In this document: positions 2 through 39,221 of the stretch, in pieces
How positions within the stretch are numbered: position 1 is the stretch's first letter
Layout of the letters: each line of letters begins with the position of its first letter
Virus record (IMG/VR): IMGVR_UViG_3300030673_000013
Span: 1 to 44,538 of that record
DNA from: a virus
Length of the DNA: 44,538 nucleotides
Strand: one strand, 5' to 3'
The notes under the pieces: model-generated
Databases searched by the model: none
Told to the model about the DNA's origin: nothing
What the model saw: only the letters and a program-made list of their open reading frames with translations
Program-made: the position numbers and the translations under genes

Positions 2-2797
2 ATCCTTGTAACCGGTGTCTACGACGCAGAGACAAAAGAAAAAACAGCTCTCGACGGGAACGGCGGGGTGCTGGTGAAAAAGATGCTCAAGAATCCCGGA
101 GTGACTCTCGTGGGAGCGAACATCATATACGACCTGGGGTGGCTCTGCAGCTCTTTCAAAATGAAGGTGAAAGAGGTCAAGTGTGGCCTCGTTGACGTGC
201 AGCAAGCGGAGTCGTGCATTGACGAGTACCAAAAGTACACACTCGATGCTCTCGCGTATAAATACTTAGGCGAGCGCAAAGGCGCGGAGCCTCTCATGGC
301 GTGGGCGAGAGCACACGGCCTCCAGGGTGACTTCCGTAAGCACTTGAAGCTTGCGTGGTACGGTCGAAAGGCTGAGGGAAAACTCACGTATATCGAAGCG
401 GTGCCTGATCTCGTGCGTGCGTACGTTATTTCTGACGCCGATCAGCCGGTGCGGATATGGGAAAAACAGTTCGCCGAGCTCCAGCACCTTGGTACACTCG
501 CGCCCGCTTTGCGGAAGTTCAAGCTCATCAAAGTGTCACTTGCCATGAAGCAGCGCGGAGTGCGCATCGACATGGAAGCGAAGGCCGCAAACTACGAAAT
601 AGTGAAGGGTCACCAAGACCGTCTTCTTTCTGACTTTACCGAGAAATATGGAAAAACAAACGTCGGCTCGCCTAAGCAGCTTGCGGAGCTTTTCGACCGA
701 ATGAACGTTCCGTATAGGCACAAGATTCGCATTAAAGGGTATATTGGCAGACAGGACTTCCAGAATCCAGACTTCGCAGACCAGAAAAAAAGGCTTAAGA
801 ACGTGTTCTCCGGGGTGCGTGTCAGGAAGGGTCAACTTCTCGTATACGTCAACAAACAGTACGCGTCGCGCACCGCACAGGACCTCACTGACGCAGGCTA
901 CCGGGTGACCAATAACCCGAACATCGACAAGGCAGCTCTTGACGCCGTCCGGCGCGATCATCCAGTCGCCCAGGCGGTTGTAGATCTCAAACAGGTCACG
1001 AGTGTCATCGACAAGTTCCTCGGTCCCAAGTTCGACCGATTCATCGTGAACGGCCGTATTCACGCGGACTTTAATATTTCAGGTGCGCGGCAAACCGGAC
1101 GATTCTCTTCTTGTTTCTCCGGGGATACCTGGGTAACAACACCTGTAGGCAGAAAAAGACTTCGTGACATCCAAGAAGGCGACGAGATTATAACCCATAC
1201 TGGTGCTGTGGCACGTGTTGCCGCTCTTATTGACAGAGGAGTGAAGCAAGCCTATAGATTGACAACGGAAGCACCTTCCAGTATAATTTGCACTAACGAC
1301 CACCCTTTCATGTCTGTAAAAGGATGGGAAGAGGTAGGCAAGTGCAAGGAGGTTTTGTATGTCGGCAAGGCAGGTTACGGACATCGTGCTAATTTCGGAG
1401 ATAGTGCGACTATTCCTCTCAGAGGAGAAGCCGACGGCTGCAGAAGTGGCTGCGAAGGTATCGGAGACGAATCAAACAGTCAGGAAGGTTCTGAGCGAAG
1501 CGCTTCCGTCGGATGTCTGGAAGGCAGAAAAAGCACTTCGGTACTCTCGTGGGAAGATAGAAGGACTGAACGCAATGCGGGGCAAGACATTGGAGAAGCA
1601 CCATCTTTGGAAAGGAGTTGTGTCGGACAACAAGGGTCACCTCACTATAAAGACGTCAGACGGGAAGAGGCAGTTTATTCACAGGTTGGTAATGGCAGAA
1701 GCTTTGGGTGTTCCTGTGGAAGTTCTTCGGCTGTTCGATGTGCATCACATAGACGGGGACGGGGAAAACAACGAGCTGGACAATCTTGTGCTGGTGACAA
1801 AGAAGGGTCACAGACGCTTACATCGGGTATGGTCACTGTTAAAAGACTCTCCCCTTTGGGAAAGGTACAAGTCTTTGATCTCTCCATAGATCATGAGGAC
1901 CACTCGTTTATCGCTAACGGCTACGCCGTGCATAACTGTAATCCGAATTTACAGCAGGTCCCATCAAAGACAGTACTTTTCAGAAAGACTGACCACGAGC
2001 TGAACCTTGCGAAACTATGCAGGGCGATCATCGTTCCTGATGAAGGGATGTGGCTCGGCAAGATGGACTACTCGGGACAAGAGAACGTCCTCCAGGCGCA
2101 CTTCGCTGTCGGAACGGGAGCGGACGCGATCAGGGCTGAGTACAACAATAACCCTGACTTCGACTTCCATACCTACATGGGGCATGTAACAGGTCTCACA
2201 GAAGAGTATGGTTACGATGCGGAGGGCAATGATCTAGGACGAAAGTACGCAAAGAATTGCGGATTCGGCCTTGGCTACGGAATGCAGATACCGACGATGA
2301 TGGAGTCGTTTGGCTGGGAGAAAGAGTTTGCCGAGAAGGTAACCGACGCGTACAACGACGCCGCTCCCTTCGTCCGAGAGACGATGGACGCGGTTTCTGA
2401 TGTAATTGTGAAGCGCGGGTTTATTCGCACCCTCGGTGGAAAGAAACTTCACCTGCGTAAATACAACGGTAAGGTCGACACAAAGAGTGCATACAAGGGC
2501 TACAATAAACTCATTCAAGGATCTGCTGCAGACATGATGGAAGAATCGCTCGTGCAGTTCTACGAGTCTGGCTACGACGATGTGTTCCCCCTTTACCTCA
2601 CGGTTCACGACGAGATTGACTTCGGTGTTCCGAAAACGAAAGAAGCTTTGAAGCGCCTCGCGGAAGTGAAATATGTCATGGAGCACTCACTTAAAATGGA
2701 TGTGCCGATATACGTCGACCCGGAACTCGGTATCCACTGGGGTGCCATGAAAGACTTCGAGAGAAATAAGGAGAAGTTTATGGAGAGAGTATCATGA
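2..2797 (+). CDS. Family A DNA polymerase with 3'-5' exonuclease, interrupted by an intein (5' partial)
   Basis: Replicative DNA polymerase. The frame is open from the first bases, so the true start lies upstream. The exonuclease domain is cut: an Exo II motif (GANIIYDLGWL, 116-148) and an Exo III-like AYVISDAD (418-441) are visible. Polymerase motif A (MDYSGQE), motif B (RKYAKNCGFGLGYG) and motif C (VHDE) follow the intein. By alignment with T7 and E. coli enzymes, the motif B position that controls dideoxynucleotide discrimination is Phe, as in E. coli Pol I (family knowledge). The conserved TGRFSS-CNPNLQQVP segment is broken by the 275-residue intein at 1112-1936; removing it restores a normal polymerase. 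The gene overlaps the next start by ATGA. Polymerase identity is certain; the length is unknown. Confidence 0.96.
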   Translation: MLVTGVYDAETKEKTALDGNGGVLVKKMLKNPGVTLVGANIIYDLGWLCSSFKMKVKEVKCGLVDVQQAESCIDEYQKYTLDALAYKYLGERKGAEPLMAWARAHGLQGDFRKHLKLAWYGRKAEGKLTYIEAVPDLVRAYVISDADQPVRIWEKQFAELQHLGTLAPALRKFKLIKVSLAMKQRGVRIDMEAKAANYEIVKGHQDRLLSDFTEKYGKTNVGSPKQLAELFDRMNVPYRHKIRIKGYIGRQDFQNPDFADQKKRLKNVFSGVRVRKGQLLVYVNKQYASRTAQDLTDAGYRVTNNPNIDKAALDAVRRDHPVAQAVVDLKQVTSVIDKFLGPKFDRFIVNGRIHADFNISGARQTGRFSSCFSGDTWVTTPVGRKRLRDIQEGDEIITHTGAVARVAALIDRGVKQAYRLTTEAPSSIICTNDHPFMSVKGWEEVGKCKEVLYVGKAGYGHRANFGDSATIPLRGEADGCRSGCEGIGDESNSQEGSERSASVGCLEGRKSTSVLSWEDRRTERNAGQDIGEAPSLERSCVGQQGSPHYKDVRREEAVYSQVGNGRSFGCSCGSSSAVRCASHRRGRGKQRAGQSCAGDKEGSQTLTSGMVTVKRLSPLGKVQVFDLSIDHEDHSFIANGYAVHNCNPNLQQVPSKTVLFRKTDHELNLAKLCRAIIVPDEGMWLGKMDYSGQENVLQAHFAVGTGADAIRAEYNNNPDFDFHTYMGHVTGLTEEYGYDAEGNDLGRKYAKNCGFGLGYGMQIPTMMESFGWEKEFAEKVTDAYNDAAPFVRETMDAVSDVIVKRGFIRTLGGKKLHLRKYNGKVDTKSAYKGYNKLIQGSAADMMEESLVQFYESGYDDVFPLYLTVHDEIDFGVPKTKEALKRLAEVKYVMEHSLKMDVPIYVDPELGIHWGAMKDFERNKEKFMERVS
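1346..1352 (+). promoter_or_regulatory. Internal Shine-Dalgarno site for the nested HNH gene
   Basis: AAGGAGG lies 6 nt before the ATG at 1359, an ideal bacterial ribosome binding site in the middle of the intein coding sequence. It decides the start of the nested endonuclease and supports independent translation. Confidence 0.8.
1359..1889 (+). CDS. HNH homing endonuclease nested out of frame inside the polymerase intein
   Basis: A 176-residue protein read in the +1 frame relative to the polymerase and lying wholly inside the intein (1112-1936). The HNH core is near residues 125-160: HHIDGDGENNELDNL followed by KKGHRRLH. The N-terminal third (SEEKPTAAEVAAKVSE and on) looks like a helix-turn-helix DNA-binding segment. 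It has its own ATG with a perfect AAGGAGG and its own TAG at 1887-1889, which falls inside the codons of intein block F. By family knowledge HNH enzymes of this kind drive homing of introns and inteins; here it would cut intein-free polymerase alleles. The out-of-frame placement is highly unusual. An assembly error is unlikely because start, binding site and stop are all present while the surrounding frame also stays open. Confidence 0.88.
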   Translation: MSARQVTDIVLISEIVRLFLSEEKPTAAEVAAKVSETNQTVRKVLSEALPSDVWKAEKALRYSRGKIEGLNAMRGKTLEKHHLWKGVVSDNKGHLTIKTSDGKRQFIHRLVMAEALGVPVEVLRLFDVHHIDGDGENNELDNLVLVTKKGHRRLHRVWSLLKDSPLWERYKSLISP

Positions 2798-3219
2798 AAA
2801 AAGAACCTGTCGTATCAATAGATGACGACTGGCCTGCGATGGACAACAAGTTTGCTCCAGGGGAAGAGCAGAAGTTCAAGACTGCTATGCTCAAGACTAA
2901 GCGACTCCTTCATCCAGGTCGGACATACTTTGAGGTTGAGAACGAGGAAAAAGAAGCTGGGTTCCCGGACACGATAGAAGTGTTCGAGAACCAGCGGGTC
3001 GTGTTTGTCGAGTATAAGGTGTCTGATGCGAACGGCAAGATCACATTCCAGAGTAAACAGCCACTCTTCTACGCCAGGCACAAAAAACTCGTTATCAAGA
3101 TCGTCGCGTGGTCAGTACCGGACAACTCGTACTGGGTGTTCAACGCGTCTGATGTCGTCGCCATGAAGAGCCTGACCGCGAACATAATGAAAGGCTACCT
3201 GGTAGGAGGAAAGCTGTGA
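2794..3219 (+). CDS. Putative PD-(D/E)XK nuclease (VRR-NUC/Holliday-resolvase-like)
   Basis: A 141-residue protein. Its visible nuclease signature is FPDT (Asp59) followed by VEYK (Glu73, Lys75), then a QP...FY segment typical of small phage VRR-NUC enzymes. Such proteins commonly sit between the polymerase and an SNF2 helicase in phage replication modules, as here. The start overlaps the polymerase stop (ATGA), implying translational coupling. The likely role is cleavage of branched or recombination DNA. Family assignment rests on the motif and context only, so the substrate is unknown. Confidence 0.6.
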   Translation: MKKEPVVSIDDDWPAMDNKFAPGEEQKFKTAMLKTKRLLHPGRTYFEVENEEKEAGFPDTIEVFENQRVVFVEYKVSDANGKITFQSKQPLFYARHKKLVIKIVAWSVPDNSYWVFNASDVVAMKSLTANIMKGYLVGGKL

Positions 3220-3515
3220 AGAAATGGGACGACCTTTCCGAGCTAGAAAAGACACCGTACCTGGACCAGATCGCGAACACGGTTGACGGCCTTTACTGGT
3301 GCACCAGAACGTGGGAAGCCTGGTATGTAGGTACGATGCAATCCAATGACTTCGTCTTGATTGCGGACGACGATGACTTCATAGATATCAACGCGAGGGC
3401 CTTATATGACCTCACGGTACAACAATCATTCTTGAGCAGGCTAAAAGCTCGTATCTCGTACTGCAAGGCGCTTGTCCTGGTGTGTGCGTGGCTCAAGAGA
3501 ACAGAAAAGAAATAA
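3216..3515 (+). CDS. Hypothetical protein in the replication module
   Basis: A 99-residue protein with a GTG start overlapping the previous stop (GTGA) and a clear AGGAGG about 8 nt upstream. It is acidic in the middle (ADDDDFIDI) and ends in a hydrophobic then basic tail (ALVLVCAWLKRTEKK). No family is recognised. It lies between the nuclease and the helicase fragments, in the same transcript. Confidence 0.65.
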   Translation: MKKWDDLSELEKTPYLDQIANTVDGLYWCTRTWEAWYVGTMQSNDFVLIADDDDFIDINARALYDLTVQQSFLSRLKARISYCKALVLVCAWLKRTEKK

Positions 3516-3528
3516 GGGAGACGGACAC

Positions 3529-4860
3529 ATGAAATGGTTTATCATCAATACAGAAAGCTTCTCCGCGAAAGGCGCCAAAGACACCAAGATAATCGATAAA
3601 TCATTCCTCCCGAAACATCTTTCTCTGTTTCTCCAAAAGTTTGGTTACCCCTACGTCATCCTTGATGAAAGCTCAAAAATAAAGACAACGTCGGCTATGG
3701 CCGAACACAAGAAATCGAGCCGGTGCCGTGTTATAAAGACATTGAGTGATGTTGGTGAGAAGTCCATATTGACCGGAACCTTGAAGAGTAAATCGCCTCT
3801 CAACGTGTATGACCAGTTCAAGTTCCTTTCCGAGTCTTTTTTCCCTGAGACGATGTTCGAGTTTGCGGAACGATACTGCGTGATGATAACCATACGCGTT
3901 GGGCGCGGACGCAGGGTGTGCATAAGCGAGAAGGACTGGAATAAGATACGCACGCGCATGGTAAATGCGTATGCACGCGGTGGCCAACTGCAGCTTGATA
4001 TGAGTAGGGCGTATCTTTTCAAAGAGTACACGATTGATGAGTTCAATCTTAACTGGATCATGTCGCACCAAGTGTATACGCCGTTCACTCGTCAAGCGGA
4101 GCTTTTCAAACGCATTGAAGAATACACAATGGTCGTCAAGCGTGAAGACGTGTTCGATATCTCATTCGAGAAGTTCGTGCATGAGCCGATCATCCGCTAT
4201 GTCGAGATAAGCGAAAAGGCAAAGAAGATTGGCAATGAGCTCATAAAGCTTGGCTTTACAGACAACATTGTCCTCGGGCAAGCTCCGGCGCTTGAACTCA
4301 CCCACCGACTGCAGGATCTCTGCAACGGCTTTGAGCCTATCGCGACAGTGCTCCCTGACGGATCGAGGGAGATTTCCTACAAAGCACTCGACGAAAACCC
4401 GAAGCTTGAAGAGATATTCGAACTCCTGGAAGAAATCGGGGTCGAGAACCACCAGGTCGCGGTCATAAGTTCACGCATAAACATGCTTGAGGCGATTGAA
4501 GAAAGGCTCTTGAAAGATGGTATATCGTTCACGCACTACGAAAAAGCAACCAAGGGGCAATCCGAGGAAGACTTCGTAGCCGGTCGCGCCCAGGTGTTCC
4601 TTTCGTCTCTTGCGCCTTCGGCATACGGGTTAAACTGTCTCGCGAAGTGCGATTATATCATCTATGCGTGCGTAGATAACTCGACCGAGACATTCTATCA
4701 GAGCAAGCATCGTATCCTTCGCGGTCAGCTTGACCATGCGAAGTTCGCCTATATGATCTGTGTGCGTAATTCCATAGAAGAAAGAATTGCCAGATCCCTA
4801 CAACGTGGTATAGAATTGATTAGTTACCGGAACGATAAAAAGACATTCGAGTTTAAGTGA
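3529..4860 (+). CDS. SNF2-type helicase, C-terminal piece (motifs II-VI)
   Basis: A 443-residue protein from ATG 3529 with AAGGGAG upstream; a longer reading from 3472 has no ribosome site. It starts KWFIINTESFS, the strand that normally precedes motif II. It carries motif II (VILDESSKIK, residues 43-52), motif III (LTGT, 81-84), motif V (LSSLAPSAYGLN) and motif VI (QSKHRILRGQ). It has no Walker A or motif Ia: these are on the next gene downstream (4868-5158). Neither piece alone should hydrolyse ATP; together they add up to a full-length phage SNF2 helicase of about 540 residues. The order is permuted, C-terminal piece first. Confidence 0.85.
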   Translation: MKWFIINTESFSAKGAKDTKIIDKSFLPKHLSLFLQKFGYPYVILDESSKIKTTSAMAEHKKSSRCRVIKTLSDVGEKSILTGTLKSKSPLNVYDQFKFLSESFFPETMFEFAERYCVMITIRVGRGRRVCISEKDWNKIRTRMVNAYARGGQLQLDMSRAYLFKEYTIDEFNLNWIMSHQVYTPFTRQAELFKRIEEYTMVVKREDVFDISFEKFVHEPIIRYVEISEKAKKIGNELIKLGFTDNIVLGQAPALELTHRLQDLCNGFEPIATVLPDGSREISYKALDENPKLEEIFELLEEIGVENHQVAVISSRINMLEAIEERLLKDGISFTHYEKATKGQSEEDFVAGRAQVFLSSLAPSAYGLNCLAKCDYIIYACVDNSTETFYQSKHRILRGQLDHAKFAYMICVRNSIEERIARSLQRGIELISYRNDKKTFEFK

Positions 4861-4867
4861 GGTATAT

Positions 4868-5158
4868 ATGGCAGACTATAGTTGGCAATTAAAGGCAGTC
4901 GAACGGTTCGCAAAGTCAAAGATTTCTGCTATTGTCGCCGCATGCGGGACCGGCAAGACCCGAGCCGCGATCCGCATAGCCTTGGAAAAGGATCTCCCTG
5001 TCGTTGTCATTGCCCCGAAGAATATCTGCAAGCAGTGGAAGGATGAGATCATGGATATCGGCGGAGAGGATCAAGAGGTATTCGTATACGACGCTCAGGA
5101 AGTGTCCAAACATCCCGACGCATTCAATATGTCTTTTATGGAGTTCTTACATGGCTGA
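4868..5158 (+). CDS. SNF2-type helicase, N-terminal piece (Q motif, Walker A, motif Ia)
   Basis: A 96-residue protein with GAGG before ATG 4868, 7 nt after the stop of the C-terminal piece. It has a Q-motif-like YSWQLKAVERF, Walker A (ACGTGKT, residues 25-31) and motif Ia (VIAPKNICKQW), then ends at EFLHG just where the upstream gene's KWFIIN segment would continue. It looks like a complete ATP-binding half rather than decay: no internal stop, good ribosome site, sensible codons. The last residues overlap the start of the membrane protein gene. It probably pairs with the preceding product in trans. Confidence 0.8.
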   Translation: MADYSWQLKAVERFAKSKISAIVAACGTGKTRAAIRIALEKDLPVVVIAPKNICKQWKDEIMDIGGEDQEVFVYDAQEVSKHPDAFNMSFMEFLHG

Positions 5159-6332
5159 AAAAGATACGAAACCGGTAACGGTATACCTCGACGAAGAAAC
5201 CGATCTCCACTACATAAAAGGCGTGACGAAGATATTATTTGACAACGGCGTGGTCGTCGACCGTGCAAGGTTTGAGTCGTACGTAGCGAAAAAGATGCCG
5301 ACAAGCCCACTCATCAAAGAGGCTCTTGCCGACCCAGCATCCACCGGATTCGACTTCGACTACGCCCGCCGTGCCCGAGAGCTTAAGCGAAAGTCAGATA
5401 CTCCTGTCGCGAAGATCGAGGAGCCGCCTGTCGTCGAGGTGGCCCCTCCGGTTGATATCCTCGTCAAAGAGACAGAAGAAAAGCCTATCCCGGAAGCGCA
5501 CAAGGCCAAAGCCCTTTTTTCTTCTGTTTCCTCCATGAACGATAGTGAAGTGATTCTTGGCATCATCGGTGTATTCAGCATGGTTATGAGCATGTACCAT
5601 AGCTTCACGTTTTTGACTGGCTCAGGGAAGCCAGTGTGGGTCGCGTTCATCACATCGATGATAATGGTCTTATTCGCAGCGACTGCATTTCACTCAAGCA
5701 AACAGTTCTTCGTGGCCAACATACGTGCAGTGTTCGGCCTTCTTTTAACGGTAATTGGAATAGGTGTAGTATTTTACCTTGTGTTCTCAACTATAGCCGT
5801 AAACTACGACCAGTTCACCGTGAAGGAGCTTATAAAGCAAACGACTGCAGTTGAATCAAGTCAGGCAGTTAAGACTGTGGATAATTCAATCTCGACGAAC
5901 GATACTGCTCTTGCTCAAGTGAGTGCCGACATTGATAGTTACCGAAAGGACAGTGATGTCTGGCAAGCAACGATGTCACAGAACAGTACTCCAGACGAGA
6001 ACGGTAAATTCTCGATAGTATACTCTGTGGCATCAAGGAACTATACGCTCGCGCAAACGAACCTGAAAGCAGCCATTGCGAAGCGGGACGCCTTGTATAA
6101 CGCGAAGACAGTACAGATCGAAAAGAAAGACACCGTGGTAGAGACTGCAAAGGCGGGACGGGAAACAGTGTACACGCTCATGTCGTCGAAGATAGGTATA
6201 AAGGAATCGACCATACGGTTTATCGTGTACACGATCCCTGCGACATTCTTCGATGTGGTAAGTCCACTTGCGCTCAGTATTGTGCTTCTCCTTCGGGACG
6301 AGCAGAAAAAGAGGAAGGAGGAGAAAGTATGA
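5151..6332 (+). CDS. Predicted integral membrane protein with a coiled coil, unknown function
   Basis: A 393-residue protein. ATG 5151 is chosen because the frame upstream only overlaps the helicase piece. A soluble, Pro/Glu-rich N-terminal third is followed by three hydrophobic segments (about residues 132-230). Then comes a long helical stretch (QAVKTVDNSIS to EKKDTVVETAK), a fourth membrane segment (FFDVVSPLALSIVLLL) and a basic tail (RDEQKKRKEEKV). No family is recognised. A membrane protein inside a replication module could anchor replication complexes or act in exclusion, but that is speculation. Confidence 0.75.
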   Translation: MAEKDTKPVTVYLDEETDLHYIKGVTKILFDNGVVVDRARFESYVAKKMPTSPLIKEALADPASTGFDFDYARRARELKRKSDTPVAKIEEPPVVEVAPPVDILVKETEEKPIPEAHKAKALFSSVSSMNDSEVILGIIGVFSMVMSMYHSFTFLTGSGKPVWVAFITSMIMVLFAATAFHSSKQFFVANIRAVFGLLLTVIGIGVVFYLVFSTIAVNYDQFTVKELIKQTTAVESSQAVKTVDNSISTNDTALAQVSADIDSYRKDSDVWQATMSQNSTPDENGKFSIVYSVASRNYTLAQTNLKAAIAKRDALYNAKTVQIEKKDTVVETAKAGRETVYTLMSSKIGIKESTIRFIVYTIPATFFDVVSPLALSIVLLLRDEQKKRKEEKV

Positions 6333-6348
6333 AAATCAAGGAGGAATC

Positions 6349-6702
6349 ATGCCGTCAGCAAACGCCGGAAAAGTAGACTCTGAGGATCTCGTCACCATCC
6401 CTGTACTGAAAGAATGGGTCATGACTGCGCAGCACGGCCGTAACAAAATACAGTACGTGTTTACCGGGGCCTTCTCGAATAAGGTGCGGAAGCTTTCAGT
6501 CGAAACGTTCGGGAACCTTAAGATGTATCAAAGGTTCGCCCAGTCAGTCACAAGGAATCTCTATAACACGACGGAGATATACGGCATGAAAGCAATCAAC
6601 ATCGACCAGCCGCAGGAATCAATCGTGTCGGTGCGGCTCAAGTTTGTGATCGTGAATGAGGATTCCCCGTGTGTGTACCGGGAAATAAAAAGCAAGATGT
6701 AG
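6349..6702 (+). CDS. Hypothetical protein
   Basis: A 117-residue protein; the start at ATG 6349 has a perfect AAGGAGG 4 nt upstream. It is soluble and mixed alpha/beta by eye, with a basic centre (NKVRKLSVETFGNLKMYQRF). No family is recognised. It is the last gene before the small promoter and terminator unit that ends the rightward module. Confidence 0.7.
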   Translation: MPSANAGKVDSEDLVTIPVLKEWVMTAQHGRNKIQYVFTGAFSNKVRKLSVETFGNLKMYQRFAQSVTRNLYNTTEIYGMKAINIDQPQESIVSVRLKFVIVNEDSPCVYREIKSKM

Positions 6703-6705
6703 CGA

Positions 6706-6735
6706 TTGAGACTTGTGTGCAAGTCGTGTTATAAT
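6706..6735 (+). promoter_or_regulatory. Sigma70-type promoter for the SH3-like gene
   Basis: TTGAGA (6706-6711), an 18-nt spacer and a perfect TATAAT (6730-6735). The predicted start near 6742 leaves a leader of about 13 nt that still includes the AGGAGGA at 6744-6750. Confidence 0.75.
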
Positions 6736-6754
6736 ACGTTACCAGGAGGAAGAC

Positions 6755-6964
6755 ATGGAAACAGAGAACGAACAGGCTATCCCGAAGATGAGCGAGCCGG
6801 TTGTCTATAAGGTAGGCGACAAGGTTATATTCATGCCGAACGGTGCCCCGGAAGAAAAGGGCGTCGTGACCGAGGTGCCGGAAGGTGGGCAAGGAAAGGT
6901 ACGAGTCAAGCTTGATTCAGGCGGTGAATATCCTATTAACCAGTGTTACTTGAAAAAGGCGTAA
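6755..6964 (+). CDS. Small SH3-like (KOW-like) domain protein
   Basis: A 69-residue protein from ATG 6755 with AGGAGGA upstream. After a short acidic arm it is a single beta-barrel-like domain (KVGDKVIF, GVVTEV, GKVRVKLDSGG), the spacing seen in KOW/SH3-like folds. It has a dedicated promoter and a dedicated terminator, so it forms a monocistronic unit that is probably strongly expressed. Function unknown; nucleic-acid or protein binding would suit the fold. Confidence 0.7.
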   Translation: METENEQAIPKMSEPVVYKVGDKVIFMPNGAPEEKGVVTEVPEGGQGKVRVKLDSGGEYPINQCYLKKA

Positions 6965-6972
6965 GACGAATA

Positions 6973-7003
6973 GGGGTTCACCAAAACGGTGAGCCCCTTT
7001 TTT
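6973..7003 (+). terminator. Rho-independent terminator ending the rightward module
   Basis: GGGGTTCACC (6973-6982), loop AAAAC, GGTGAGCCCC (6988-6997), then T6. It separates the rightward replication genes from the convergent leftward tail genes. The opposite strand has only a weak T-tract. Confidence 0.92.
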
Positions 7004-7005
7004 AT

Positions 7006-8520
7006 TTACTCGTGCAGCATAGCATAGACTGTTCCGTCCGCTTGAATACGCACCACTCCTGCATTGTTGTCTGTCGCCGGGAACACCGGTATACCGTACA
7101 CCTTCCCGTTAATATGGACTCGAACATCATTCCCGACAGGCGGAAATCTGGTCTGCAGACTAATCCCGTTCGATAAAAAGACACGGTCTACAAGGGATGC
7201 TTCAAGTACGGCCGTATCCCCTATTCCTGAAATCTCATTTATGGCTGTTATAATTACCCGACTCGCCAACTCTTCTTCTGTCACTCCCAAAGCTTCCGCG
7301 ATAGAAACATAATGGGAAGCTGAGGCAGAAGGTCCGTCTGTTACCCCAACACTTTCTGCTACGGCAGGTCTCAGTATTGCAGTGCTTAAACAGTTATCTA
7401 TGGCAGATATTGTTTCTGCAATAGACGCGTATACGATCTTCGACGAAATCGATGAGTGAGAGGTTGCCACAGTCTCCGAGATAGAAACAGAAAAGACGGT
7501 TGAAATTCCTGATGAGTGGGAGGTCGCAACCGTTTCGGTGATCGACACAGGATACGCAGTGCTGACCGCTCCCTGCTCTGCAATGGCAGCACTTTCGGCT
7601 ATGGCCGCTTGGCGAACCGACTGTGCGTTTTCTGTCTCTGTGAGACTTACGCTTTCGGCCATCGTTGCGGGGGTGAACCGGGCGGAGTTGGGAGCGTCGG
7701 ATGTAGTAATAGATTCTTGGACGGACGGCTTGAGGGTTGCTTGAGCCGATGGGATATCCGAGATCCCGGATGTTTCTGCTATCGCTGCAGAAGCCACGAG
7801 ACCTATGCTTTGGCTATCTGAGATACCAGAGCTTTCCTGGATAGCTACAGAGGCGACCGATAACGTCGCCTGGGCATCACCTGTAGCGGAAGACTCTTGA
7901 ATAGAGGCGGAAAGAACAGTTGAGGCGCTCGGTGCGTCCGAAGCTCCTGCAGCCTCCTGGACCAGGCTTGACGTGGTCACGGCACCAGACGTGGAGTCAA
8001 GTGCCCCTACTGTCTCCTGTACGGTAGAGGAGGTGATAAACTTGGATGAAGGGGAGTCTGCAGATGCAACGCTTTCCGTTATAGAAGCGGGTGAGAACCG
8101 TGCAGAATTGGGTGCATCGGATGCGGCGGTAGTCTCAAGTATGGTAGCTGCAATGGCAAGCCCTGCGTTCGTGGACTCTGTGAGCCCGGCGCTTTCAGCG
8201 ACTGAGACTGCTACGGCCGACATGGTTGCAGCGCTCTCGGAAACAGAAGAAGACTCTTGAATACTGACCTGGGTTATGTCCGACTCATCACATGCGTCGG
8301 TGATGCTTACCGTCTCCGAAATTACCGCGAGGGTAACATCATGCTCGTCACAAGAGTCGGCTATGCCAATGCTTTCTGCAATTGTTACTTGGTAGACGGG
8401 AGAACCTGATGATTCAAAGAAGTCGTCGGCTATCTGGGACGCAACACCTGAGTATATCCTGTTGTACAAGCTGCTTGAGTTAAGCCTGCCTGATGGGTTG
8501 CGTCTCCAGATATTAGCCAT
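7006..8520 (-). CDS. Tail-fibre or adhesin-like protein with twenty 20-residue repeats
   Basis: A 504-residue protein. Residues 1-45 form a unique head, 46-445 are exactly twenty tandem repeats of 20 residues, and 446-504 form a unique C-terminal domain ending DGTVYAMLHE. The repeat consensus is roughly S-I-x-E-S/T-x-x-x-x-D-x-x-S-A followed by six variable small residues. It lies at the end of the late operon beside other tail-fibre-like genes. Its start overlaps the previous stop (TAATG). A long, thin beta-rich stalk in the virion is the likeliest reading; no family name is certain. Confidence 0.75.
   Translation of the reverse strand: MANIWRRNPSGRLNSSSLYNRIYSGVASQIADDFFESSGSPVYQVTIAESIGIADSCDEHDVTLAVISETVSITDACDESDITQVSIQESSSVSESAATMSAVAVSVAESAGLTESTNAGLAIAATILETTAASDAPNSARFSPASITESVASADSPSSKFITSSTVQETVGALDSTSGAVTTSSLVQEAAGASDAPSASTVLSASIQESSATGDAQATLSVASVAIQESSGISDSQSIGLVASAAIAETSGISDIPSAQATLKPSVQESITTSDAPNSARFTPATMAESVSLTETENAQSVRQAAIAESAAIAEQGAVSTAYPVSITETVATSHSSGISTVFSVSISETVATSHSSISSKIVYASIAETISAIDNCLSTAILRPAVAESVGVTDGPSASASHYVSIAEALGVTEEELASRVIITAINEISGIGDTAVLEASLVDRVFLSNGISLQTRFPPVGNDVRVHINGKVYGIPVFPATDNNAGVVRIQADGTVYAMLHE
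7186..8385 (-). repeat. Twenty tandem 60-bp coding repeats
   Basis: The repeats encode 20 residues each with no indel in any copy. They are diverged at the DNA level; two adjacent copies share SxTVxTSHSS-type cores (SITETVATSHSS, SISETVATSHSS) and look recently duplicated. Confidence 0.85.
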
Positions 8521-36698: not shown

Positions 36699-39221
36699 TT
36701 ACAGCACCTGCGGTGAGAGGTCATAGAACCCCGAACTCATCTCTTTTACGTCGCCGTCTTCCTCAATATCGAGTCTCCGCGCCACGGTGAGCTTCCTGAT
36801 GTCGGCGAATTCCCGTCTGTTGCAAGCCAGAAAAAAGGCAATCAGGCGAACCCCGTCACATCGATGTATAGGGCTTGATGGTCCTTTTCCCTTCGGGATG
36901 TTCCCGTCTTTGTCCCGCTGTGCGAGCGATAGATCTTCTGCTGTCTCCCGCGCTCCCGCCGTCACGATAATCCTTTTTGTGAACAGCATCTTATTCACCA
37001 AGAATGCCGTATCCTCGACGAGCGGGTTCTTCGAGCGCATAATGAGGTGTACATTATTTCTTCTAAGCTCCCGAGTGAAATGTGTGAGCTGATCCTTTGC
37101 CGTCGTGTCCGGTATCATATATATCCGCTGTGAGGGGAAATCATACCTGACAACTCTCGGCGCGTCCCGCATCTCAGCAAACTCATAATTCTTTATGATG
37201 TGCATAATTCCGTCCCGCACCACCGCGACGCACCCGCGATGATACCCCTGGTTGAAGTCCTGTCCCCAGTACAACACTTCGTCCTGCGTGATCCTCCGGT
37301 CGAGTTCGTCGTTTATAAAGTTCCTGTCCCAGTCGAAATCCCCGAACACCTGCCCCTTGGAAATCGCGAGAAACTCACCTTCCAAATAGACCCGTCTCTC
37401 CCGCTCGTTGTAAATCTCGTACATCGAGCGCACATAGGTAGGATCAAGATGGTAGTTATCCGCCGTCCGGCCGCGCACTAAGGTGAATCCGGTCCCTGCT
37501 TTCTTGAACTGCGTGTAGAGCCGGTAGAGTCCCTTCTGTCCTTGCGAGGTGCTATTATGGACCAATATATCGCCTACGTTTGTTCTTACAAAAAACTCAT
37601 GGCTTCCCTCGACCTCAAGGTCATAGACCGGCACAAGACGGGCATCGGCTGTCTTTGTATCCTCCACACGCTCTGAACACCCTGCCGCACCGGCAAGTTT
37701 TCTTGATGTGACCGGTACCAGCTGTTGTATGTACCCCAAGAGTTCTTGACCTGTCACTACACTTCTGTGTACAGAATGCAGAAGGTCTTTTTGTTGTGTA
37801 GTCTCTTCCGCATACCGAGCATGTACAGGCATACAATCCTTTTCCGACACCTGCTCGTTTTTCTTGTGCCCTGTTTTTCTCCTGTTCATTAACGCGTAGT
37901 CTGGCACACTTGCCACACCGTTTAGCATTTTCTTTTCTTGACATGAACGTATCCCCGCAGTCGACGCAAACATGCTGACTAACCCGTTTTTTCCAAGCAC
38001 CTTTATAAGTACCTGCGCTAATCTGCCTTGCTCGTTCTCGCATACCCTGCTTTCGTTTTTCATACTGGCATTCTTTGCATAAGGATGAATTTGATGCTCT
38101 AGCGTATTGCTTCTTTCCGCACTGAGCACAAACATACTCAAAGTGTCGATGATGTCCGTGGTAGGTATTGTGTTCTTTTCCAGGAGTGCTCTCAAGGTTG
38201 TCAGGTTTATTATCACCCGTGTTACCGTTGACGTGATGCACAATATATCCATCTTGTACTTTTCCGTTGATACTTGCATATACTGCGACATGTAGTCCTT
38301 TACTTGGACCATTACCTGCATGACTTCTGTAATATCCTTGTTTCTTCGTTTTGCTATGTACCCAATAGTATGGTACTCCGTTAAAACAAACCGGAGCGTA
38401 TCCAAAGCCTGTTCCATCGACAACAGCAATCTCTTCCATTTTTCTGCCTCGTAGTATGACGATACCATACATATAGACGAGCTGTCAATGTACCTTGCTT
38501 CGGCCCAATCTTTCTTTGCTTCATCCCATACCGGATGCTCAGGAGTAAGAGATATACCGTGTAAATTTATAACCTCCCGAAAACCTGTCCGCCACTGACG
38601 CAAAACTCGTTTGTACCCGGATCTTGTCATAACTAGCATTCCCGGTACTATGGTTTCTATTTTTTTATACCCGTCTACTGTCAGTACTTCCGTCCCTGTG
38701 CCAAAGCACCCCATCATGATAAACGGACGCCTCATCCCAGGTATGATCTGCCTCGTGCGTTCGTTGACCGCCTTCACCGCCTCAAACGTCACATCCTCCG
38801 CAGCCGAAAGCCCCAGATCGTCCACTTCGTCGAGGATGCTTGCGCACACGTCGTAACCCATTATTTCGCCCGGATTCTGGAGCGGTGTTATCAATATGTC
38901 GACACTGCCAATTCGCAGGATGTTGTTCTTCGTGTCATGCTTGTAGACCGTCTTTGAGTTCTCAAGATCCTGTATGATATACGCGAGCGTCGTCTTCTCA
39001 AGGTGCCCGATGGTCACGCCCCCCAAAAGCACACGCGGCCGGTGACCTTCCTTATCAGTTTTCCCCTGCAGTATCGTCGAGATATACTCCGCAGCCTGTG
39101 CGTCCGCGCTTGTTTTACCTGCTCCATACCCAGCGACGTGCATGTGATAGCGCCGGTCGGGAAACAGAAAAGGAGCCTGCAAAAAGAGGCTCTGGTTCGG
39201 AAGGAGCATTTTTTTAATCAT
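36699..39221 (-). CDS. terL: Large terminase subunit (TerL) interrupted by an intein
   Basis: DNA packaging ATPase and nuclease, 840 residues including a 385-residue intein. Walker A is GYGAGKTS (residues 31-38) and Walker B is ASILDEVDD (about 127-135). The chain is cut after PFIMMG (residue 171) and resumes at STSQGQKGLY (residue 557), which is the ATPase coupling motif. The nuclease domain shows GQDFN, PDTTAKD and the HRCDGVRL acidic site near the C-terminus. The spliced protein is about 455 residues, a normal TerL size. It follows the small terminase with a 4-nt overlap. Confidence 0.93.
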   Translation of the reverse strand: MIKKMLLPNQSLFLQAPFLFPDRRYHMHVAGYGAGKTSADAQAAEYISTILQGKTDKEGHRPRVLLGGVTIGHLEKTTLAYIIQDLENSKTVYKHDTKNNILRIGSVDILITPLQNPGEIMGYDVCASILDEVDDLGLSAAEDVTFEAVKAVNERTRQIIPGMRRPFIMMGCFGTGTEVLTVDGYKKIETIVPGMLVMTRSGYKRVLRQWRTGFREVINLHGISLTPEHPVWDEAKKDWAEARYIDSSSICMVSSYYEAEKWKRLLLSMEQALDTLRFVLTEYHTIGYIAKRRNKDITEVMQVMVQVKDYMSQYMQVSTEKYKMDILCITSTVTRVIINLTTLRALLEKNTIPTTDIIDTLSMFVLSAERSNTLEHQIHPYAKNASMKNESRVCENEQGRLAQVLIKVLGKNGLVSMFASTAGIRSCQEKKMLNGVASVPDYALMNRRKTGHKKNEQVSEKDCMPVHARYAEETTQQKDLLHSVHRSVVTGQELLGYIQQLVPVTSRKLAGAAGCSERVEDTKTADARLVPVYDLEVEGSHEFFVRTNVGDILVHNSTSQGQKGLYRLYTQFKKAGTGFTLVRGRTADNYHLDPTYVRSMYEIYNERERRVYLEGEFLAISKGQVFGDFDWDRNFINDELDRRITQDEVLYWGQDFNQGYHRGCVAVVRDGIMHIIKNYEFAEMRDAPRVVRYDFPSQRIYMIPDTTAKDQLTHFTRELRRNNVHLIMRSKNPLVEDTAFLVNKMLFTKRIIVTAGARETAEDLSLAQRDKDGNIPKGKGPSSPIHRCDGVRLIAFFLACNRREFADIRKLTVARRLDIEEDGDVKEMSSGFYDLSPQVL
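37554..38708 (-). other. Intein in the large terminase (385 residues), splicing motifs intact
   Basis: Runs from Cys172 (codon 38708-38706) to Asn556 (37556-37554), with Ser+1. Block A is CFGTGTEVLTVDG, block B has TxxH as SLTPEHPVWDE, block F is VYDLEVEGSHEFFV and block G is LVHN. All splicing residues are present. The middle of the intein frame (about residues 90-360) has no endonuclease motif but stays open for about 270 codons across the nested HNH gene. Confidence 0.92.
37621..38439 (-). CDS. HNH endonuclease with four zinc ribbons, nested out of frame inside the terminase intein
   Basis: A 272-residue protein in the +2 frame relative to terL, wholly inside the intein. The start at 38439 has GAGG 7 nt upstream; an ATG 11 codons earlier (38472) has none. 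The HNH core is HHVNGNTGDNKPDNLE followed by an NTYHGHH segment, as in intron- and intein-borne HNH enzymes. Four CxxC...CxxC zinc ribbons follow (CAQCGKK, CVDCGDT, CSVCGRD, CRCGRV with their partner pairs), probably DNA-binding. The stop TGA lies inside the codons of intein block F. It is not similar by eye to the HNH in the polymerase intein. Confidence 0.87.
   Translation of the reverse strand: MEEIAVVDGTGFGYAPVCFNGVPYYWVHSKTKKQGYYRSHAGNGPSKGLHVAVYASINGKVQDGYIVHHVNGNTGDNKPDNLESTPGKEHNTYHGHHRHFEYVCAQCGKKQYARASNSSLCKECQYEKRKQGMRERARQISAGTYKGAWKKRVSQHVCVDCGDTFMSRKENAKRCGKCARLRVNEQEKNRAQEKRAGVGKGLYACTCSVCGRDYTTKRPSAFCTQKCSDRSRTLGVHTTAGTGHIKKTCRCGRVFRACGGYKDSRCPSCAGL

Follow-up and report, generated by a model that had tools for sequence, protein, structure and literature searches.

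The endonucleases of inteins are generally taught as in-frame domains. Split inteins, said to have been described in 2009 by Dassa et al. under the term "fractured genes," reportedly have a free-standing endonuclease between their halves. Outside inteins, out-of-frame HNH endonucleases have been described in the ShiLan domain and in a second element found in Pacc40, both of which reside in phage methylases and lack a Shine-Dalgarno (SD) sequence (PMC11855218); splicing motifs are absent from the ShiLan domain, which is presumed to be retained in the protein (Arsenault, Gosselin & Gogarten 2025; PMC11855218). As for RNA-splicing elements, phiL7 has a group I intron interrupting its polA gene at site 676, and the introns of I-HmuI and I-PfoP3I occupy another polA site (PMC3428280).

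The window considered here, i.e., the whole stretch of DNA analysed, is one viral contig of 44.5 kb, in which a polA gene bears an intein with an HNH gene nested in another reading frame. Like the mobile inteins with an in-frame endonuclease (LAGLIDADG or HNH), this intein has class-1 splicing residues, hosts the endonuclease between blocks B and F and invades a replication gene at its conserved catalytic site, but the endonuclease is here in the +1 frame instead of the same frame, equipped with a separate SD, start and stop, and would thus be a separate protein outside the intein polypeptide. With the split inteins it shares what looks like a separately translated endonuclease gene between two intein halves, yet the window intein is one uninterrupted polypeptide within a single open frame (2-2797), the split state, i.e., halves on separate ORFs, being exhibited by two other loci, namely L029 and L034. 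The HNH endonucleases of group I introns are also akin to it: those of phiL7, PhAPEC7 and PPWS1 display 30-40% identity, reside in polA and share the target motif TGRLSS..PNLQ, and, together with I-HmuI and I-PfoP3I, they exemplify a related free-standing polA HNH ORF with its own ribosome-binding site; they differ by an RNA-splicing carrier, a position on the other side of the HNH tree and the lack of an overlapping coding frame. The closest described precedent is the ShiLan domain, which is similarly an out-of-frame HNH in a phage host gene kept open throughout, but here a true intein, with splicing motifs and fold present, encloses the HNH, and an SD precedes it. The first-pass annotation knew of no described family with this arrangement, which holds for inteins in the searchable literature, since full-text searches (most subscription journals being outside their scope) returned no description of an intein whose endonuclease is out of frame; the out-of-frame HNH as such, without an intein, was already described (PMC11855218). 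The principle thus appears not wholly new, the intein setting new.

The intein in the polymerase gene

The family-A DNA polymerase reading frame is open on the plus strand from 2 to 2797 (931 aa), its 5' end being cut off by the contig start. It comprises an N-extein (2..1111, plus strand), i.e., the 5' polymerase part, matching DNA_pol_A (8e-40) and DNA_pol_A_exo1 and terminating in TGRFSS, an intein of 275 residues (1112-1936), and a C-extein (1937..2797, plus strand) beginning with CNPNLQQVP and matching PF00476 over ORF residues 646-914. The intein junctions read TGRFSS^CFSGDT and YAVHN^CNPNLQ (the caret marking the boundary), and the insertion site, TGRFSS^CNPNLQ, is a conserved motif immediately upstream of the polymerase active-site motif. 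Considering the splicing domain, matches were obtained to PF14890 (7e-8), TIGR01445 (3e-7) and TIGR01443 (8e-4); the PF14890 score of 32.8 is slightly below the curated cut-off of 35.8, and the two TIGR matches are above theirs. All class-1 residues are present, namely C1, T61, H64, H274, N275 and the +1 Cys.

Three parts can be discriminated in the intein, all on the plus strand: (i) an N-terminal splicing block (1112..1357) with Cys1 in CFSGDT and block B (TNDH), delineated by TIGR01445, AF2 and Foldseek, (ii) a stop-free linker of ~150 residues (1361..1828), which is the intein-frame shadow of the HNH gene and is predicted disordered, as delineated by AF2, identity and the stop test, and (iii) a C-terminal splicing block (1829..1936) with blocks F and G (VHN^C), delineated by TIGR01443, AF2 and alignment, the first 61 nt of which double as code for the HNH C-terminus. 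In the AF2 model, residues 1-83 (pLDDT 74-93) and 240-275 are ordered and form the two Hint halves, and residues 84-233 are disordered (pLDDT ~30) exactly at the HNH overlap. The predicted fold of both ends resembles known inteins, Foldseek retrieving the DnaX, MchDnaB-1 and gp41-1 inteins (E 3e-6 to 8e-6), in line with a Hint fold.

Elsewhere in the window, a helicase is encoded on the plus strand by two ORFs in permuted order (3532-4857 and 4868-5155), the part with motifs II-VI (phrog_62 786-1129) being upstream of a 96-aa Walker A ORF (phrog_62 698-773).

The nested endonuclease gene and its start

The nested HNH homing endonuclease gene (1359..1889, plus strand) runs from ATG to TAG, encodes 176 aa with a helix-turn-helix (HTH) and an HNH_3 domain (PF13392, 1.3e-9; phrog_7545, 4.5e-17), and is +1 relative to the intein frame and wholly within the intein. 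Starting directly after block B and ending within block F, 47 nt short of the intein end, it occupies the usual endonuclease slot of inteins. Its SD, AAGGAGGT (1346..1353, plus strand), is 5 nt from the ATG and reads K-E-V in the intein frame. As such, the layout originally proposed, i.e., an intein at 1112-1936 in frame with the polymerase (PF14890, TIGR01445, TIGR01443) enclosing a +1 HNH of 176 residues (PF13392) with its own SD, ATG and stop, proved correct, the start reading AAGGAGGT-N5-ATG. The HNH frame folds in an AF2 model (pLDDT 79), for which the best PDB fold match is I-HmuI, a weak one (prob 0.87, E 0.2) with an unlike domain order; in the fold search, the N-terminal helices match sigma- and DeoR-type HTH domains, not significantly by E-value. 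Both elements expected of an HNH homing endonuclease, namely an HNH_3 motif and a DNA-binding module, are present.

With a junction pattern, HN[CST]NPN.Q (a degenerate intein end), and HNH-alignment scans, 13 further viral polA loci with a nested HNH were found (L008/L019, L009/L020, L010/L018, L011, L012, L013, L014/L015, L016/L037, L017, L021, which is partial, L022, L023, and L052), bringing such polA inteins at this position to 14, the window's included. The junction pattern had no match in genome contigs, nor did the whole intein in a DNA-level search of phage isolates. Used as a protein pattern, the intein frame retrieved no relatives because the shadow region is unconserved, whereas the HNH frame and the junction pattern retrieved them. 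In all polA cases the HNH is +1 relative to the host frame, and the insertion point follows residue 4, 5 or 6 of TGRLSS. In addition, L007 exhibits a mini-intein at the polA site without an HNH, and in L014 (polA ORF 2704-7584) the nested-HNH intein is followed, a few dozen residues on, by a second intein containing a LAGLIDADG-like stretch, FVGYFVGDGNLG.

The start of the nested gene is conserved, being ATG in 12 of 13 polA loci, and the N-terminal motif M[SA][IV]SK.W is found in most of the 13 HNHs. An SD match of at least 4 nt precedes the start in 11 of the 13 loci, L012 and L023 being without a recognisable one, and a match of at least 5 nt in seven, against 0.84 expected from random places in the same inteins. 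We infer, as the simplest reading, that the HNH is initiated independently at its internal start; the claim of an independently made endonuclease thus gains support from the sequences. Another way of making it would be programmed +1 frameshifting from the N-terminal half of the intein, yielding a fusion that only splicing or cleavage would release from the N-extein; a fixed frameshift would indeed require the constant +1 phase seen in all polA cases, but the conserved ATG and SD at a constant place and the N-terminal motif speak against it, as does a terminase family (below) in the other phase, and this route appears quite improbable.

Constraint on the splicing blocks and on the two frames

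Intein_splicing was detected by Pfam in 12 of 12 polA loci, and C1, T61, H64, H274 and N275 are invariant across 12 inteins. These data bear on the possibility that the insert remains unspliced and stays in the polymerase as a tolerated disordered loop, which is the proposal made for the ShiLan domain. The predicted disorder of the middle would suit such a protein, and out-of-frame HNHs are indeed known from genes devoid of intein motifs (PMC11855218) and occur also in L193 (751-2751) and L200, where a phase-2 HNH lies inside an N6/N4 DNA methylase of uncultivated viruses in what looks like a ShiLan-type arrangement. The invariance of the full set of class-1 splicing residues, the Hint fold predicted from both ends and an insertion point bordering an essential enzyme's active-site motif nonetheless render an unspliced insert very improbable.

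Over the overlap, all-pairs identity amounts to 43% in the HNH frame, 24% in the intein frame and 27% in the third, unused frame. Only at the C-terminal overlap (block F), i.e., over the last ~20 codons, does the intein frame equal or exceed the HNH frame, and this is genuinely dual-coding DNA. In the shared stretch, the residue-level constraint thus appears to be on the HNH frame, the intein frame being merely kept stop-free until those last codons. The suggestion that two selections are coupled on one segment has accordingly to be narrowed: the HNH is constrained in its residues, but the intein frame, except for the last ~20 codons, only in its freedom from stops.

A second case in the terminase gene and its family

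Beyond what had been noticed at first, the polA intein has a twin in the same window. The terminase large subunit (TerL) gene (36699..39221, minus strand; phrog_2 TerL, translation) contains its own intein of 385 aa (37554..38708, minus strand), with the junctions IMMG^CFGTGTEV and ILVHN^STSQG and matches to Hint_2 (5.5e-5) and Intein_splicing (9.5e-4). Nested out of frame, in phase 2 relative to the TerL intein, is an HNH with Cys-rich zinc-finger repeats (37621..38439, minus strand; PF13392, 8e-11), which shows no host-frame stop against 5.3 expected (P = 2.4e-4).

A scan with this HNH family gave 77 new loci. Together with two from an isolate, 79 loci were tested. In 67 of them the surrounding host frame is open, where ~7% would be expected, and the phase is invariably 2; over the 55 clusters tested, ~4 in total would be open by chance (Fisher P ~1e-43, the loci listed being those found open). 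Once the methylases without intein (L193/L200) and two loci with misassigned starts (L154/L155) are excluded, ~60 well-supported phase-2 nested-HNH inteins remain, mostly in TerL, and Pfam confirms the terminase and intein domains in examples of this family. Overlap matches in Pseudomonas phage FBPa53 were rejected as nested, being ordinary adjacent genes. Separately, a terminase ORF of L198 (385-3513) apparently contains two inteins (two Hint matches), one of them with an out-of-frame HNH. Useful contrasts are provided by L004, L091, L113 and L115, whose inteins carry an ordinary in-frame HNH and whose hosts comprise a MuF/portal-region gene, a ribonucleotide reductase, a helicase and a terminase-like gene. 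As judged from these alignments and scans, the nested out-of-frame HNH architecture is real, conserved and widespread.

Related endonucleases in other polA interruptions

The nearest HNHs of isolate phages also lie in interruptions of polA, at TGRLSSSNP^NLQ or TGRLSSSNPNL^Q in nine of nine phages examined, i.e., 9-15 nt downstream of the intein sites and within the common motif TGRLSS..PNLQ; some of them are annotated as intron-borne. In the HNH tree, the intein-nested HNHs form one clade, sister to the interruption-borne HNHs (99/98). Given this clean split, a single switch between carriers would suffice, and either direction is compatible with the tree.

This neighbourhood raises the question of whether the window element could itself be a group I intron with an incidentally open frame. 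Its nearest isolate relatives sit only 9-15 nt away, some annotated or published as group I introns, and Rfam found no intron RNA in the window insert, a result to be taken as uninformative since Rfam equally missed the intron-like interruptions of the isolates. More telling, no stop breaks the frame from one end of the insert to the other, and the splicing motifs coincide precisely with those ends, whereas all but one of the interruption-borne relatives have 7-26 stops. A group I intron appears very improbable here.

Two loci exhibit split states. In L034 (1993-3700), a polA mini-intein is encoded by two overlapping ORFs at TGRMS^, the IntC start coming after AAAAAGGAGGATAGCTATG, and an HNH-bearing interruption follows four codons past the mini-intein, an intein and an intron-like element being stacked at one target. 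In L029 (1786-5466), the intein at the polA site is similar and the HNH related, but the shadow frame is broken by stops, which amounts to a split arrangement. IntN, HNH and IntC of L029 look separately translated, although no good start was found for IntC, and L029, which looks like the split counterpart of the nested polA family, may represent a step towards a split intein. In the HNH tree, its nuclease has a long branch and groups with the interruption-borne proteins.

Two open frames on one stretch

The first-pass annotation put the chance of the intein frame crossing the HNH gene without a stop at roughly 2 in 10,000, assuming uniform base use; the rarity holds, that assumption being replaced here by two other null models. 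When the synonymous codons of the window HNH gene were permuted with the protein held fixed (50,000 permutations), 10.6 intein-frame stops were expected and none is observed (P = 2e-5); resampling codons with the usage of the flanking genes gave P = 0.0002 for zero stops. Open stretches in alternate frames reach 52-152 codons in the other long genes of the window, against 183 for polA and 287 for TerL. All 13 polA-nested HNHs tested, the window's included, are devoid of intein-frame stops where 4-15 are expected (P<=0.005 each). Outside such inteins, 15 of 16 related HNHs have their 7-26 shadow-frame stops roughly as expected, the exception being L026, which likewise lies in a polA interruption and has two. 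This difference between nested HNHs and those elsewhere indicates that selection maintains the open intein frame. A sequencing indel, by which the HNH would really be in frame with the intein, was considered as an artefact and rejected, since 13 other, independent polA contigs show the identical arrangement and phase.

Overlapping ORFs can of course arise by chance, but there is virtually no likelihood that the intein is an ordinary large one and its HNH ORF defunct or fortuitous, a reading already contradicted by the conservation pattern, namely an HNH_3 domain (PF13392) in 13 of 13 members and an HNH frame almost twice as conserved as the intein frame, which is disordered there.

Mobility, proposed mechanism and significance

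Mobility is approached here through pairwise contrasts, as the polymerase host tree is poorly resolved and by itself insufficient to prove transfer. Between the distant phages L014 and L017, identity is 56% for the HNH and 44% for the splicing blocks but 24-27% for the exteins; in the close pair L019 and L020, identity rises to 85-93% in the exteins but reaches just 66% in the HNH and splicing blocks. Both contrasts would be expected from a mobile element or from recombinational replacement. Since all nested cases are metagenomic contigs, homing is invisible in a cross.

Very probably, the locus is a mobile intein spliced from the polymerase together with a free, internally initiated HNH driving its homing. 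The HNH would be a self-contained gene, complete with ribosome-binding site, start and stop, lodged in another frame in the intein loop between blocks B and F. Ribosomes reading the polymerase would translate the HNH DNA as a long disordered loop of a precursor protein, from which the Hint fold would excise itself to restore the polymerase; ribosomes initiating at the internal SD would yield the free HNH protein. The latter would nick or cut intein-free polymerase genes at the conserved codons for TGRLSS..PNLQ, and repair off the intein-bearing copy would spread the element. Legible at the level of sequence are both frames, the conserved start and SD, the purifying constraint on the HNH, the selection against stops, the intein core, and one nested HNH clade adjoining that of the HNHs in polA interruptions at the shared motif; we infer from them that both products are translated and that splicing, cleavage and homing take place.

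More broadly, we lean slightly towards viewing out-of-frame, separately translated HNHs in inteins as a major overlooked class with at least two origins (polA, +1; TerL, +2), in which the polA HNH family would have moved between RNA- and protein-splicing carriers and the loss of the open shadow frame would give rise to split inteins accompanied by a separate endonuclease gene, L029 being an example. With the nuclease as an independent gene entangled with the intein, its dose would be uncoupled from splicing, and it could be exchanged as a cassette between introns and inteins that share a target. The nested architecture further suggests a testable route to split inteins. As one of the two frames goes unseen in standard annotation, many inteins seen as "degenerate" or as having a "disordered loop" may carry hidden nucleases. 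These loci would then be natural overlapping genes, in which the frame of an essential gene protects a selfish one.
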